Source: Verrucomicrobiota bacterium (lineage in GTDB: Bacteria; Verrucomicrobiota; Verrucomicrobiae; Chthoniobacterales; UBA10450). From it: a stretch of DNA of 7,191 bases. Below, piece after piece: positions 1,950 through 4,745 of the stretch. Location: NCBI GenBank assembly GCA_005887855.1, contig VBQB01000292.1, positions 1-7,191 on the forward strand, read 5' to 3'. The notes beneath the pieces were generated by a model, which saw only the letters and a program-made list of their open reading frames with translations, did not search any database and was not told where the DNA came from. The position numbers and the translations under genes are program-made. The number at the start of each line of letters is the position of its first letter. Positions within the stretch are counted from its first letter, which is position 1.

Positions 1950-2603
1950 ATGGAAAGAGCTTTTCCAAATCGAACAGAAGCCGGGCGTTTGCTCGCGGAA
2001 AAGCTCGTTAAGTATGCTGGTCGAGATAACGTGATTGTGCTTGGTCTTCCGCGAGGCGGGGTGCCCGTTGCCTACGAAGTAGCGCAACGATTGAAGGTGC
2101 CTCTCGATGTTTTTATCGTGCGCAAATTGGGCGTGCCCGGCTTTGAAGAACTCGCCGCCGGTGCGATCGCGTCCGGTGGCGTGCGCGTTTTGAACGAAGA
2201 CGTCATGCGCGCCCTGCCTAACGCGGATGAGGCCATTGAATCGGTGACGGCCAAGGAAACAGCCGAGCTGGAACGACGCGAGCAAAGTTATCGACAAGGA
2301 CGCCCCGCACCGGCACTGGACGGCCGTGTTGTCATTCTGGTAGATGACGGACTGGCGACCGGCGCAACCATGCGTGCCGCGGTCAAAGGGTTGCGACAGC
2401 GTGCGGTGGCGAAAATTGTCGTGGCAGTGCCGGTCGGTCCGCCGGATACGTGCCGCGAATTCGAGGAAGAAGCCGACGAAACCATTTGCGCGACCGCGCC
2501 CGAATTTTTTCAGGCAGTCGGTCAGTATTACGAAGATTTCCCGCAGACGAGCGACGAAGAAGTGCGCGAACTGCTCGCGCACGCCGCGCAAGATCGACGA
2601 TGA
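1950..2603 (+). CDS. Stand-alone phosphoribosyltransferase-domain protein
   Basis: A 217-residue cytoplasmic type I phosphoribosyltransferase fold protein, of the kind that transfers or binds a PRPP-type ribose phosphate; the true substrate is unknown. The signature PRPP loop is VVILVDDGLATGATM at residues 127-141, with the paired aspartates 132-133 and the TGAT phosphate loop. Upstream are LGLPRGGVPVAYEVA (residues 31-45) and DVFIVRKLGVPGFEELAAGAIASGG (53-77), the usual early motifs of this subfamily. The frame is open back into the tRNA, but ATG 1950 is chosen because the similarity to relatives starts there and AAAGG at 1941-1945 is a ribosome binding site. Its stop overlaps the next start (ATGA, 2600-2603), so the two are co-translated. 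In mycobacteria this domain is fused to an erythromycin esterase (Rv2030c) or a dienelactone hydrolase (Rv0571c); those partners are the next two genes here. It is not a recognisable purine- or pyrimidine-salvage enzyme. Confidence 0.9.
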   Translation: MERAFPNRTEAGRLLAEKLVKYAGRDNVIVLGLPRGGVPVAYEVAQRLKVPLDVFIVRKLGVPGFEELAAGAIASGGVRVLNEDVMRALPNADEAIESVTAKETAELERREQSYRQGRPAPALDGRVVILVDDGLATGATMRAAVKGLRQRAVAKIVVAVPVGPPDTCREFEEEADETICATAPEFFQAVGQYYEDFPQTSDEEVRELLAHAAQDRR

Positions 2604-3991
2604 ACGACACCAAGCTCGTTCGGGAGATCGCGCAGCCACTCACCCGCAATGCTAACGATTACGATGCACTACTAAAGCTCATCGGCGAGGCGCGCATCGT
2701 CCTGTTGGGCGAGGCGTCGCATGGGACGCACGAATTTTATTTCGAGCGCGCGGCGATCACAAAAAGGCTTATTGCAGAAAAAAACTTCACCGTCATCGCG
2801 ATCGAAGCCGATTGGCCCGATGCGTCTCGCGTTCATCGCTACGCGCGTGGTGCGGACGACGACGCGGATGCAAACGAAGCATTAGGCGGATTTCGCCGTT
2901 TTCCCACGTGGATGTGGCGCAACACTGTCGTCGTCGAATTCGTTGAGTGGCTGCGCGAGTTCAACCAACTCGCCACAGGACGAGGCCGTCCGATCTGCCA
3001 CGTGACGGATTCGTCCAATCGGCGAACTGGCGGACATGTCGATCCAAAAAAAGCGCTGGCCGGATTTTACGGCATGGACCTTTACAGTCTCCACGCCTCA
3101 ATCGACGCGGTCCTCAGCTATCTCAACAAAGTCGATCGCGATGCGGCCAAGCGGGCGCGACACCGTTACTCTTGCTTCGATCATTTCAACCGCGAGCCGC
3201 AGGAATACGGCTATGCCGCGACCGTCGGCGCGACCGAGTCGTGTGAAGACGAAGTGGTGGAGCAACTCGTCGAGCTGCGAAACAAGGCAGCGGAATTTTT
3301 GAGTCGCGATGGAGAAGTTGCCGCGGAGGAACTTTTCTTTGCGGAGCAAAACGCGCGGTTGATCAAAAATGCGGAGCAGTATTACCGGTCGATGTTTCGA
3401 GGTCGGGCATCATCGTGGAATTTGCGAGACCAACATATGGTTGAGACGATTGAAGCTCTGGTGGCACATCTCAATGGTAGCCGCCAACCGAAGGCGATCG
3501 TTTGGGCGCACAATTCGCACCTCGGCGATGCGCGCGCGACCGAGATGAGCCAACACGGCGAGCTGAACGTCGGTCAGCTTGTGCGCGAACGTTTTGGAAA
3601 GGAAGCGGTGCTGATCAGTTTCAGCACGTATCACGGGAGTGTGACCGCGGCATCAGATTGGGGCGGGCCCGCCGAACGCAAAAACGTGCGGCCCGCTCTG
3701 CGTGGGAGCTACGAAGAGTTCTTTCATGAAATTGGGTTGGCACGGTTTTGGATCAACTTCCGTGAAAGGGGTGACAATATCGACATTTTGCGAACGTCGC
3801 GGCTGGAGCGCGCGATTGGCGTGATTTACCGCCCGGAGACAGAACGATTCAGCCATTATTTTCAGGCGCGTTTGCCGGAACAATTCGACGCGATCATTCA
3901 CATCGACGAGACGCGCGCTGTCGAGCCACTGGAACGGACCAGTATTTGGGACAAGGGCGAATTGCCCGAGACCTATCCATTCACGCTGTGA
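2600..3991 (+). CDS. Erythromycin esterase family protein
   Basis: A 463-residue member of the erythromycin esterase (EreA/EreB-like) superfamily. The start is ATG 2600, whose ATGA overlap with the PRTase stop indicates translational coupling; the open frame upstream to 2450 is only a shadow of the PRTase gene. Motifs: VLLGEASHGTHEFY (residues 34-47; Glu38 and His41 match the catalytic Glu/His of EreB), IAIEADWPD (67-74), GFYGMDLYSLH (155-165), RYSCFDHF (189-196), NLRDQHMVE (274-282) and VWAHNSHLGDAR (301-312), with the His pair 304 and 307 matching the two later active-site histidines. The active site therefore looks complete. No signal peptide is present, so it should be cytosolic. Most chromosomal members of this family have unknown substrates, and nothing here shows macrolide resistance. 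Residues about 123-152 look longer than in relatives I recall. In Rv2030c of M. tuberculosis this domain is joined to the PRTase encoded just upstream here. Confidence 0.92.
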   Translation: MNDTKLVREIAQPLTRNANDYDALLKLIGEARIVLLGEASHGTHEFYFERAAITKRLIAEKNFTVIAIEADWPDASRVHRYARGADDDADANEALGGFRRFPTWMWRNTVVVEFVEWLREFNQLATGRGRPICHVTDSSNRRTGGHVDPKKALAGFYGMDLYSLHASIDAVLSYLNKVDRDAAKRARHRYSCFDHFNREPQEYGYAATVGATESCEDEVVEQLVELRNKAAEFLSRDGEVAAEELFFAEQNARLIKNAEQYYRSMFRGRASSWNLRDQHMVETIEALVAHLNGSRQPKAIVWAHNSHLGDARATEMSQHGELNVGQLVRERFGKEAVLISFSTYHGSVTAASDWGGPAERKNVRPALRGSYEEFFHEIGLARFWINFRERGDNIDILRTSRLERAIGVIYRPETERFSHYFQARLPEQFDAIIHIDETRAVEPLERTSIWDKGELPETYPFTL

Positions 3992-4014
3992 GAATAATAT
4001 TCCGAGGCAAATTT

Positions 4015-4071
4015 GGTAGGGCGCGATCGTTGGGGGCGCTGCATTGGACGGCCCGGCGCTCCGTTCCTACC
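4015..4071. repeat. Imperfect intergenic palindrome, REP-like
   Basis: A 57-base unit that begins GGTAGG (4015-4020) and ends CCTACC (4066-4071), with GC-rich imperfectly complementary interior including GCGCGATCG and two GGCGCT copies (4035-4040, 4055-4060). It fills most of the gap between the esterase and the hydrolase genes. The opening TTTGGTAGGG resembles TTTGTAGGGG at 1307-1316, which suggests a shared dispersed repeat family. It could form an RNA hairpin between two co-transcribed genes, lowering or stabilising the downstream message. I cannot count genome copies from this window. Confidence 0.5.
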
Positions 4072-4085
4072 TGTGACTTCCTTTG

Positions 4086-4745
4086 ATGATGAACAAAGTG
4101 CGTATTCCAGCTGGTCGCGCGACACTCGATGGGAATTTGAGCATTCCCGAGAATGCCAGCGCGCTCGTTCTTTTCGTTCACGGCAGCGGCAGCAGCCGGC
4201 ACAGTCCGCGAAATCAATTCGTCGCGCGCACTTTGAACAATGCCGGACTAGCGACAGTCCTGTTCGATCTACTTACGCCGGAGGAGGAAGCTATCGACGC
4301 ACGCACCGCCGAACTTCGATTCAACATTAAACTGCTTGCGGAGCGGCTTGTTCACGCGACCAACTGGGCAAAGCAACAACAACAAACGCGCGATTTGCGC
4401 ATTGGTTATTTTGGATCTAGCACGGGGGGCGGCGCGGCGCTGGTTACAGCCGCGGAGCGGCCGCAAGATGTCGGGGCGGTGATTTCGCGTGGTGGCCGCC
4501 CCGATTTAGCAGGCGAAGCGCTGCCTAAAGTGCAAGTGCCTACCTTGCTCATCGTCGGTGGAGACGACGATATTGTGATCGAACTAAACGAGCAGGCGCG
4601 CGATCGGATGCGCTGCGAAGTGAAGCTGGAGATCGTTCCCGGTGCGACGCATCTCTTTGAAGAACCGGGCGCGCTCGAGCGAGTCGCACAACTGGCGAGC
4701 GATTGGTTTTTGCTCCACGCCGCCGGGAGCGCTGGCCCGCACTGA
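4086..4745 (+). CDS. Dienelactone-hydrolase-type alpha/beta hydrolase
   Basis: A 219-residue cytosolic alpha/beta hydrolase without signal peptide. FVHGSGSSRHSPRN (residues 30-43) supplies the oxyanion-hole region, GYFGSSTGGGAAL (107-119) the nucleophile elbow with Ser112, IVGGDDDIV (156-164) the acid region around Asp161, and GATHLFEEPGAL (186-197) the catalytic His189. The triad is thus complete. The substrate is not predictable. TTG 4083, ATG 4086 and ATG 4089 are all in frame; I take 4086, but 4089 is equally possible, and no clear Shine-Dalgarno sequence is seen, so translation may depend on the upstream genes. It follows the esterase gene by 94 bases on the same strand, separated by a palindrome, and probably shares its transcript. 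In Rv0571c of M. tuberculosis a domain of this type is fused to the PRTase domain. Confidence 0.88.
   Translation: MMNKVRIPAGRATLDGNLSIPENASALVLFVHGSGSSRHSPRNQFVARTLNNAGLATVLFDLLTPEEEAIDARTAELRFNIKLLAERLVHATNWAKQQQQTRDLRIGYFGSSTGGGAALVTAAERPQDVGAVISRGGRPDLAGEALPKVQVPTLLIVGGDDDIVIELNEQARDRMRCEVKLEIVPGATHLFEEPGALERVAQLASDWFLLHAAGSAGPH

Follow-up and report, generated by a model that had tools for sequence, protein, structure and literature searches.

Three adjacent genes on the forward strand of a 7,191 nt stretch of Verrucomicrobiota DNA (contig VBQB01000292.1, in the following the window) encode a phosphoribosyltransferase (PRTase), a hydrolase of the erythromycin esterase (Ere) family and a dienelactone hydrolase (DLH)-like alpha/beta hydrolase, and the same three domains recur widely as neighbouring genes, as fused polypeptides and as genes found together in one genome. 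We have little doubt that the three proteins share a function of some kind, and it is fairly probable that they serve one process linked to phosphoribosyl pyrophosphate (PRPP) in survival of low energy or stress. The original prediction had described genes for 217, 463 and 219 aa lying side by side on one strand with an ATGA overlap of the first two, and both the coordinates and the Pfam matches agree with this; its proposal that the three work on one pathway is supported, as a shared function, by an excess of neighbourhood, fusion and co-occurrence and by a triple fusion. The names erythromycin esterase and dienelactone hydrolase are used here as fold labels only. The window adds a further example of a set that is widely distributed; what is of interest is the set itself, of which no description was found among the literature matches listed, subscription papers being mostly outside the search.

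To describe its neighbourhood, the PRTase was followed through 80 loci chosen by PRTase similarity. These ranked highest among 575 confirmed relatives that were detected with an alignment of 12 diverse PRTases as query. The loci were searched with the window proteins and the matches were then classed by distance, a gene counting as adjacent if it had the same orientation and was no more than 400 bases away; flanks are short at loci near contig ends, and genes on separate contigs may in truth be linked. One or both hydrolases were detected near the PRTase in 43 of the 80 loci and both in 14. Ere was present in 23 loci (fused to the PRTase in one frame in 10, adjacent in 11, near in 2) and DLH in 34 (25 adjacent, 9 near, none fused), and the rough chance that a gene occurring once per 5 Mb takes such a position beside a given gene is 0.0007. 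The survey of PF00156, PF05139 and PF01738 neighbours and fusions suggested with the original prediction thus returned a strong excess over background. The split arrangement that it emphasized is present in the window but not peculiar to it, as Ere was adjacent and unfused in 11 and DLH adjacent in 25 of the 80 loci. Where both hydrolases were found, the gene order was DLH-PRTase-Ere in seven loci, PRTase-Ere-DLH in five and PRTase-DLH-Ere in one, and the last of the 14 carried PRTase, DLH and PRPP synthase (PRS) in a row with Ere on the opposite strand. Since the orders differ, the set is not one inherited block. A quick tree of 90 PRTases, in which 49 of 87 inner branches lack resolution, requires at least 19 changes of state for Ere and 25 for DLH, which indicates repeated gain or loss of the association.

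The strongest single case for the association is a protein of Salipiger sp. CCB-MM3 (WP_066112159.1, annotated as an alpha/beta family hydrolase), in which all three domains of the window set form one chain of 883 aa in the order PRTase-DLH-Ere, whereas the window has separate genes in the order PRTase, Ere, DLH. Within the 80 loci, PRTase-Ere fusions were found in Actinomycetota, in one Bradyrhizobium and in one Akkermansiaceae metagenome-assembled genome (MAG), and such fusions also lie on plasmids of Bosea and Rhodococcus. Fusions of PRTase and DLH were detected on plasmids of Rhodococcus and Cupriavidus and in two Mycobacterium genomes (open frames of 480 and 461 codons); another, in the genome G259, was judged from a common open-frame length of 543. 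Rhodococcus opacus pR1CP1 (L004) carries the PRTase and DLH domains of the window, but fused, with a ribose-phosphate pyrophosphokinase (PRS) gene overlapping the fusion by four bases and no Ere annotated within 6 kb on either side. Plasmid records with matches numbered 131 for PRTase and 200 for Ere, and 12 places were examined; because these were picked partly by annotation, no rate was drawn from them. One place (L007) holds PRTases without adjoining Ere or DLH, and two (L005 and L012) carry no annotation. The Ere gene of Bosea (L001) is annotated as two overlapping pieces, and in L118 (Mycobacterium genome of L090) the DLH match is split over two frames.

Co-occurrence was analyzed in genomes drawn evenly and irrespective of any PRTase locus (96 Verrucomicrobiota and 160 Pseudomonadota), which were searched for all three proteins at a cut-off of E 1e-20, where distant copies may be missed; at first look at most 31 or 19 PRTase and 18 DLH candidates were scored per genome. 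After the positive centres G001 and G002 were dropped, 95 Verrucomicrobiota and 159 Pseudomonadota were tested. In the latter, PRTase was found in 19 genomes, Ere in 13 and DLH in 7. Ere and PRTase occurred together in 11 of the 159 (1.6 expected; Fisher 1.8e-10, or 4e-7 if just 80 genomes are large enough for such genes), DLH and PRTase in 7 (0.8 expected; Fisher 1.1e-7) and Ere and DLH in 4 (0.6 expected). The Verrucomicrobiota had PRTase in eight genomes, DLH in four and both in four (0.3 expected; Fisher 2.2e-5). Phosphoenolpyruvate (PEP) carboxykinase, PEPCK, served as control and showed no tie: it was present in 21 of the 159 Pseudomonadota, together with PRTase in 3 (2.5 expected), with Ere in 1 (1.7) and with DLH in 2 (0.9).

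Genes of stress response and of PRPP and nicotinamide adenine dinucleotide (NAD) metabolism recur around the PRTase. Neighbours were located by tblastn with annotated or chosen queries over up to 10 kb per side where contigs allowed. Hsp20 was found in 11 of the 80 loci, each time within 5 kb, and an HPF-like gene in 7 (6 within 5 kb). With two different queries a universal stress protein (USP) was detected in 6 loci each, the match being within 5 kb in all 6 for the first query and in 4 for the second. PRS was present in five loci, always within 1.5 kb, and lies near DLH and PRTase in a haloarchaeon as well. A nicotinate PRTase gene is found near the PRTase in L033, L060, L081, L006, L131 and the window, and the PEP synthase gene ppsA adjoins the PRTase in L098 and L100 and is two genes or more away in Stanieria. 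In L131, PRS, nicotinate PRTase, a kinase-like gene and the PRTase follow one another, and genes for HPF, Hsp20 and ppsA come a few kb further along.

A stress context is also documented for mycobacterial relatives. Rv2030c, a PRTase-Ere fusion, is encoded in the Rv2028c-Rv2031c operon, to which HspX also belongs. PMC4410610 lists hypoxia, NO and CO as its inducers and reads it as a protein of nucleotide metabolism plus erythromycin tolerance. The orthologue BCG_2049c has 681 aa with PRTase at 15-228 and Ere at 223-663 according to PMC7387457, which bears out the mycobacterial fusion of about 680 residues that was cited with the original prediction. Rv2030c and Rv0571c belong to the DosR dormancy regulon and are listed as not yet characterised in a 2017 review (PMC5309233). 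Rv2030c and BCG_2049c share with the window the order of PRTase and Ere, and HspX of the operon is an Hsp20; each is one polypeptide, whereas in the window PRTase and Ere are encoded by overlapping genes and DLH by a third, separate one.

The Ere-like hydrolase has two settings, one associated with the PRTase and one with L-isoaspartate methyltransferase (PCMT). On a Rhodopseudomonas plasmid an Ere domain is fused to a PCMT domain, and the pairing was also found in L093, L103, L104, L105, L106, L107 and L121; a single PCMT-Ere frame was directly seen in L093 (6232-8415), L103 (8512-10581) and L121 (4537-6519), and in L105 the PCMT part is divided between frames. PCMT, a protein-repair enzyme, is thus a lasting second partner of Ere in several Pseudomonadota. 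In seven non-centre genomes (G159, G163, G175, G192, G232, G235 and G259) the sequence retrieved around Ere contains no PCMT match, and all seven have the PRTase. According to PMC6515984, the PCMT gene bll4651 of Bradyrhizobium diazoefficiens is induced at 0.5% O2 (log2 4.6, then 28.7-fold, the latter value taken here as transcript) and marked as a FixK2 target; it is followed by a nitroreductase (blr4652) and a PEP synthase (blr4655), the latter induced under the same condition, as are elsewhere PRS bll3116, which has no FixK2 mark, and Hsp20 blr7961. L103 has the matching order of PCMT-Ere frame, a gene that by eye resembles a nitroreductase, and ppsA, which makes it probable that bll4651 too encodes a PCMT-Ere fusion.

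Several observations weigh against a single process. Neither hydrolase was nearby in 37 of the 80 PRTase loci, and among the 19 Pseudomonadota genomes with PRTase 8 had no Ere and 12 no DLH above the search cut-off, which implies that the PRTase can also act in their absence. Conversely, Ere occurred without PRTase in 2 of 13 Pseudomonadota (G140 and G176), in both with PCMT adjoining or fused, which means that Ere has another partner; PCMT was near the PRTase in none of the 80 loci, and the single non-centre Verrucomicrobiota genome with Ere (G025) has no PRTase. The Fisher values overstate significance, since related genomes are not independent, and most inner branches of the PRTase tree lack resolution. 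Context genes are thinly spread, with nicotinate PRTase in just 3 of the 80 loci (L033, L060 and L081) and ppsA in 2, in neither of these within 5 kb. The ComA-family gene located next to the set in the window occurs in just 2 of the 80 loci and, among the 160 Pseudomonadota, in the centre and G113 only; since G113, the sole carrier outside the centre, has no PRTase, a tie of this gene to the PRTase is unproven. The genes are also often unlinked: Ere and PRTase lie within about 10 kb of each other in 4 of 11 genomes (G159, G163 at 9.5 kb, G232 and G259), and DLH and PRTase adjoin in three of seven Pseudomonadota (G124, G232 and G259) and in one of four Verrucomicrobiota (G018). As to what had been named as decisive against the original prediction, the genes are thus usually encoded apart in evenly drawn genomes (4 of 11 and 3 of 7 linked), but the excess over background is clear, and in our judgement co-occurrence beyond linkage is better evidence of a functional tie than adjacency alone.

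Many of these points would be expected if the three enzymes had different jobs and merely belonged to a common low-oxygen or stress regulon, like Hsp20, USP and HPF. The stress neighbours, which are general stress genes, may reflect shared regulation only, and the joining of Ere to PCMT, the PRTase loci without either hydrolase, six of them mycobacterial and near a cell-division-like gene, and the scattering of the genes within a genome all fit this explanation. It gives a poor account of direct fusions in several phyla, of their differing domain orders and of the triple fusion. PRS, which among the context genes is the one checked for fusion, is a frequent neighbour but was never in the PRTase frame at the 80 loci. 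Co-regulation by itself is the most serious competitor, but one that we regard as somewhat unlikely, and a shared PRPP-linked process is preferred.

The active sites of all three proteins are conserved. The PRTase matches PF00156 (76.1 bits, cut-off 26.3) and aligns with TT1426 of Thermus thermophilus (1wd5; phmmer E 4.1e-41), a member of the same PRTase subfamily that was deposited as a hypothetical protein. Its PRPP loop, VILVDDGLATGATM, includes D132 and D133, and an RGG motif stands at 35-37. In 81 rows (the 80 loci and the window), D132, G134, T137 and G138 are conserved in 81/81 and D133 in 80/81, R35-G36-G37 of the pyrophosphate loop is conserved in 81/81, and K59 is kept as well. Paired acidic residues in the PRPP loop and the RGG loop are both features of a type I phosphoribosyltransferase. 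The known base-specific PRTases (UPRT, HPRT, APRT, OPRT and PyrR) were rejected as identities: 22 NCBIfam families matched at E <= 0.001 and none reached its cut-off, the best score being 34.0 bits against 230. Six mycobacterial loci (L039, L041, L042, L043, L072 and L085) form a second PRTase clade without Ere or DLH nearby; in 6/6 of them a cell-division gene that reads like SepF is near the PRTase, a different context.

The Ere-like protein matches PF05139 with 439.4 bits vs 26.4. In a profile alignment whose second half is weak (12.7 bits), its E38, H41, E69 and H307 correspond to E47, H50, E78 and H289 of EreC, so that all four catalytic equivalents are present; in EreC these residues are assigned to positioning and activating water (PMC7979712). 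E38, H41, E69, H304 and H307 are conserved in 22/22 rows. Proteins shorter than 60% of the window protein had been dropped before residues were counted, which removed two loci each from the 23 with Ere and the 34 with DLH. The Ere half of a model of L018 has the predicted fold of BcR135/BcR136 (3b55, 2rad and 2qgm) and EreC (6xcq) at 18-23% identity, EreC being at 18%. PDB 3b55 matches the Ere half alone of this model (residues 224-650), at odds with the statement in PMC4410610 that it contains a PRTase domain.

EreC hydrolyses macrolides, and the Ere-like subfamily may be likened to it in residues and predicted fold. A detoxification or drug-inactivation set, in which the hydrolases open macrolide-like lactones that the PRTase modifies, is nevertheless a very improbable explanation. 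The protein falls short of the curated NCBIfam cut-offs for EreB (46.8 vs 750), EreA (35.2 vs 750) and EreD (19.3 vs 800), and since these are missed more than tenfold in bits, identity with a macrolide resistance enzyme is judged unlikely. The low identity of the L018 model to EreC points the same way, as do the many phyla and the stress genes as recurrent neighbours, a comparison for which transport or resistance neighbours were not searched as such. These findings weaken the link to antibiotic resistance implied by the name of the family.

With 463 aa the window Ere copy is atypical, as most of the best 120 homologues out of 7999 scored have 438-444 aa. It contains a net in-frame insert of 22 residues that is not in the homologues aligned; the homologue P0238 has other inserts at other places. 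For this reason the agreement between the fusion length and 217+463=680, to which the original prediction had drawn attention, holds as a sum near 681 but is partly coincidence. As RNA, the stretch with the insert forms a strong predicted stem-loop (-33.4 kcal/mol, z -4.1), and the insert may be a small palindromic element inside the gene. An exact 14-base probe from it had no match in 131 loci, a search that a diverged copy would escape.

The DLH-like protein matches PF01738 with 36.9 bits (gathering score 21) and PF12146 slightly better (38.2 vs 27), and the closest solved sequence is 2o2g (E 9.7e-78), which was deposited as a dienelactone hydrolase. Where aligned, S112 (33/33), D161 (32/32) and H189 (31/31) are conserved and form a putative Ser-Asp-His triad, in keeping with an alpha/beta hydrolase. 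Dienelactone hydrolase proper has a cysteine as nucleophile; since position 112 is a serine in 33/33 rows, this name was rejected for the window protein. Six arginines (R38, R42, R78, R87, R135 and R138, each 33/33) are invariant, which suggests that the substrate is anionic and perhaps phosphorylated. In the PRTase-DLH fusion of Cupriavidus necator pHG1 (L010, 5980-7323) inspection by eye suggests loss of the motif that normally carries the nucleophile serine, and this DLH half may therefore be inactive.

For the shared PRPP-linked process we propose that the PRTase binds PRPP, whose synthase gene adjoins it in several genomes, and would transfer a phosphoribosyl group to an acceptor or, in reverse, remove it. 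The Ere-like and DLH-like hydrolases would act on ester or lactone bonds within one and the same series of metabolites, before or after the PRTase step, acting as separate proteins in the window and as parts of one polypeptide elsewhere. A PRPP-like substrate, as originally predicted, gains plausibility from the PRS and nicotinate PRTase genes near the PRTase, the reaction itself still being conjecture; we infer the common substrate series, the anionic substrate and a salvage or repair purpose in quiescence. A bolder form of this proposal is tentative and, taken as a whole, rather doubtful: quiescent bacteria would possess a widespread, hitherto unrecognised pathway of salvage or repair, linked to PRPP and NAD, that was placed in independent low-oxygen regulons (DosR in mycobacteria and, via the PCMT-Ere form, FixK2 in rhizobia), the hydrolases freeing or clearing an ester-bearing, phosphate-containing metabolite and the PRTase reclaiming or capping it with PRPP from a dedicated synthase. 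Three separate enzymes with conserved active sites, some encoded near PRS or nicotinate PRTase genes, offer separable proteins and concrete candidate substrates. Because the same domains occur as separate enzymes in other bacteria, the function of the DosR fusions can be addressed outside the pathogen.

The features of the window are collected in Table 1. The four-base ATGA overlap (2600-2603) suggests translational coupling of the PRTase and Ere-like genes from their sequence. Between the Ere-like and DLH-like genes, 94 bases apart, no terminator-like site was listed and the predicted folding of 3988-4090 is no stronger than that of shuffled versions (z 0.04), so that read-through into the DLH-like gene is possible. 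That the three are chance neighbours in this genome, as the 94 bases before the third gene and the nearest relative (L013), where PRTase and DLH stand side by side without Ere between them, might suggest, is scarcely credible in view of the ATGA overlap and all association results. At 1617-1665 the + strand has only weak resemblance to promoters, and the sole Rfam match at gathering score over the window is a tRNA (1684-1770), with no other RNA family.

Table 1. Positions of genes and other features in the window
Feature	Position	Strand	Remark
GTP-type PEP carboxykinase (PEPCK)	2-1306	+	end of gene
tRNA-Ser	1684-1773	+	
PRTase, 217 aa	1950-2603	+	type I phosphoribosyltransferase, TT1426 (1wd5) subfamily
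Ere-like hydrolase, 463 aa	2600-3991	+	PF05139; start inside ATGA overlap with PRTase
Stretch inside Ere-like gene	2962-3038	+	site of the net insert of 22 residues; stem-loop predicted for the RNA
DLH-like alpha/beta hydrolase, 219 aa	4086-4745	+	start codon ATG at 4086
ComA-family protein gene	4820-5674	-	possible context gene only
Nicotinate phosphoribosyltransferase	5907-7190	+	PRPP-using; 3' end cut by window; possible context gene only

The ComA-family protein matches PF02679 with 278.8 vs 25.2, but falls far short of TIGR03849, the curated cut-off for ComA phosphosulfolactate synthase (91.3 vs 280). Its gene stands beside the PRTase in L013, directly after it in L025 (72% identity) and about 7 kb from the PCMT-Ere gene in L093. 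Plant Hsa32 heat-stress proteins are members of the ComA family, and such kinship would fit the stress context. Compared with L081, the N-terminal domain of the window nicotinate PRTase is short of about 25 residues near positions 50-60, through either a deletion or an assembly fault. Another gene that recurs near the PRTase matches neither Pfam nor NCBIfam; by eye it shows kinase-like motifs and resembles COG2187. It lies in L045 (12315-13592), L060 (8822-9847) and L131 (7391-8398) and was also seen in L054, L069, L100 and L130. Among the genomes searched, a Verrucomicrobia MAG has the PRTase closest to that of the window (86%), and the few named homologues come from Verrucomicrobia, Candidatus Udaeobacter and once Baltobacteraceae; the host of the three-gene set is probably a soil verrucomicrobium.

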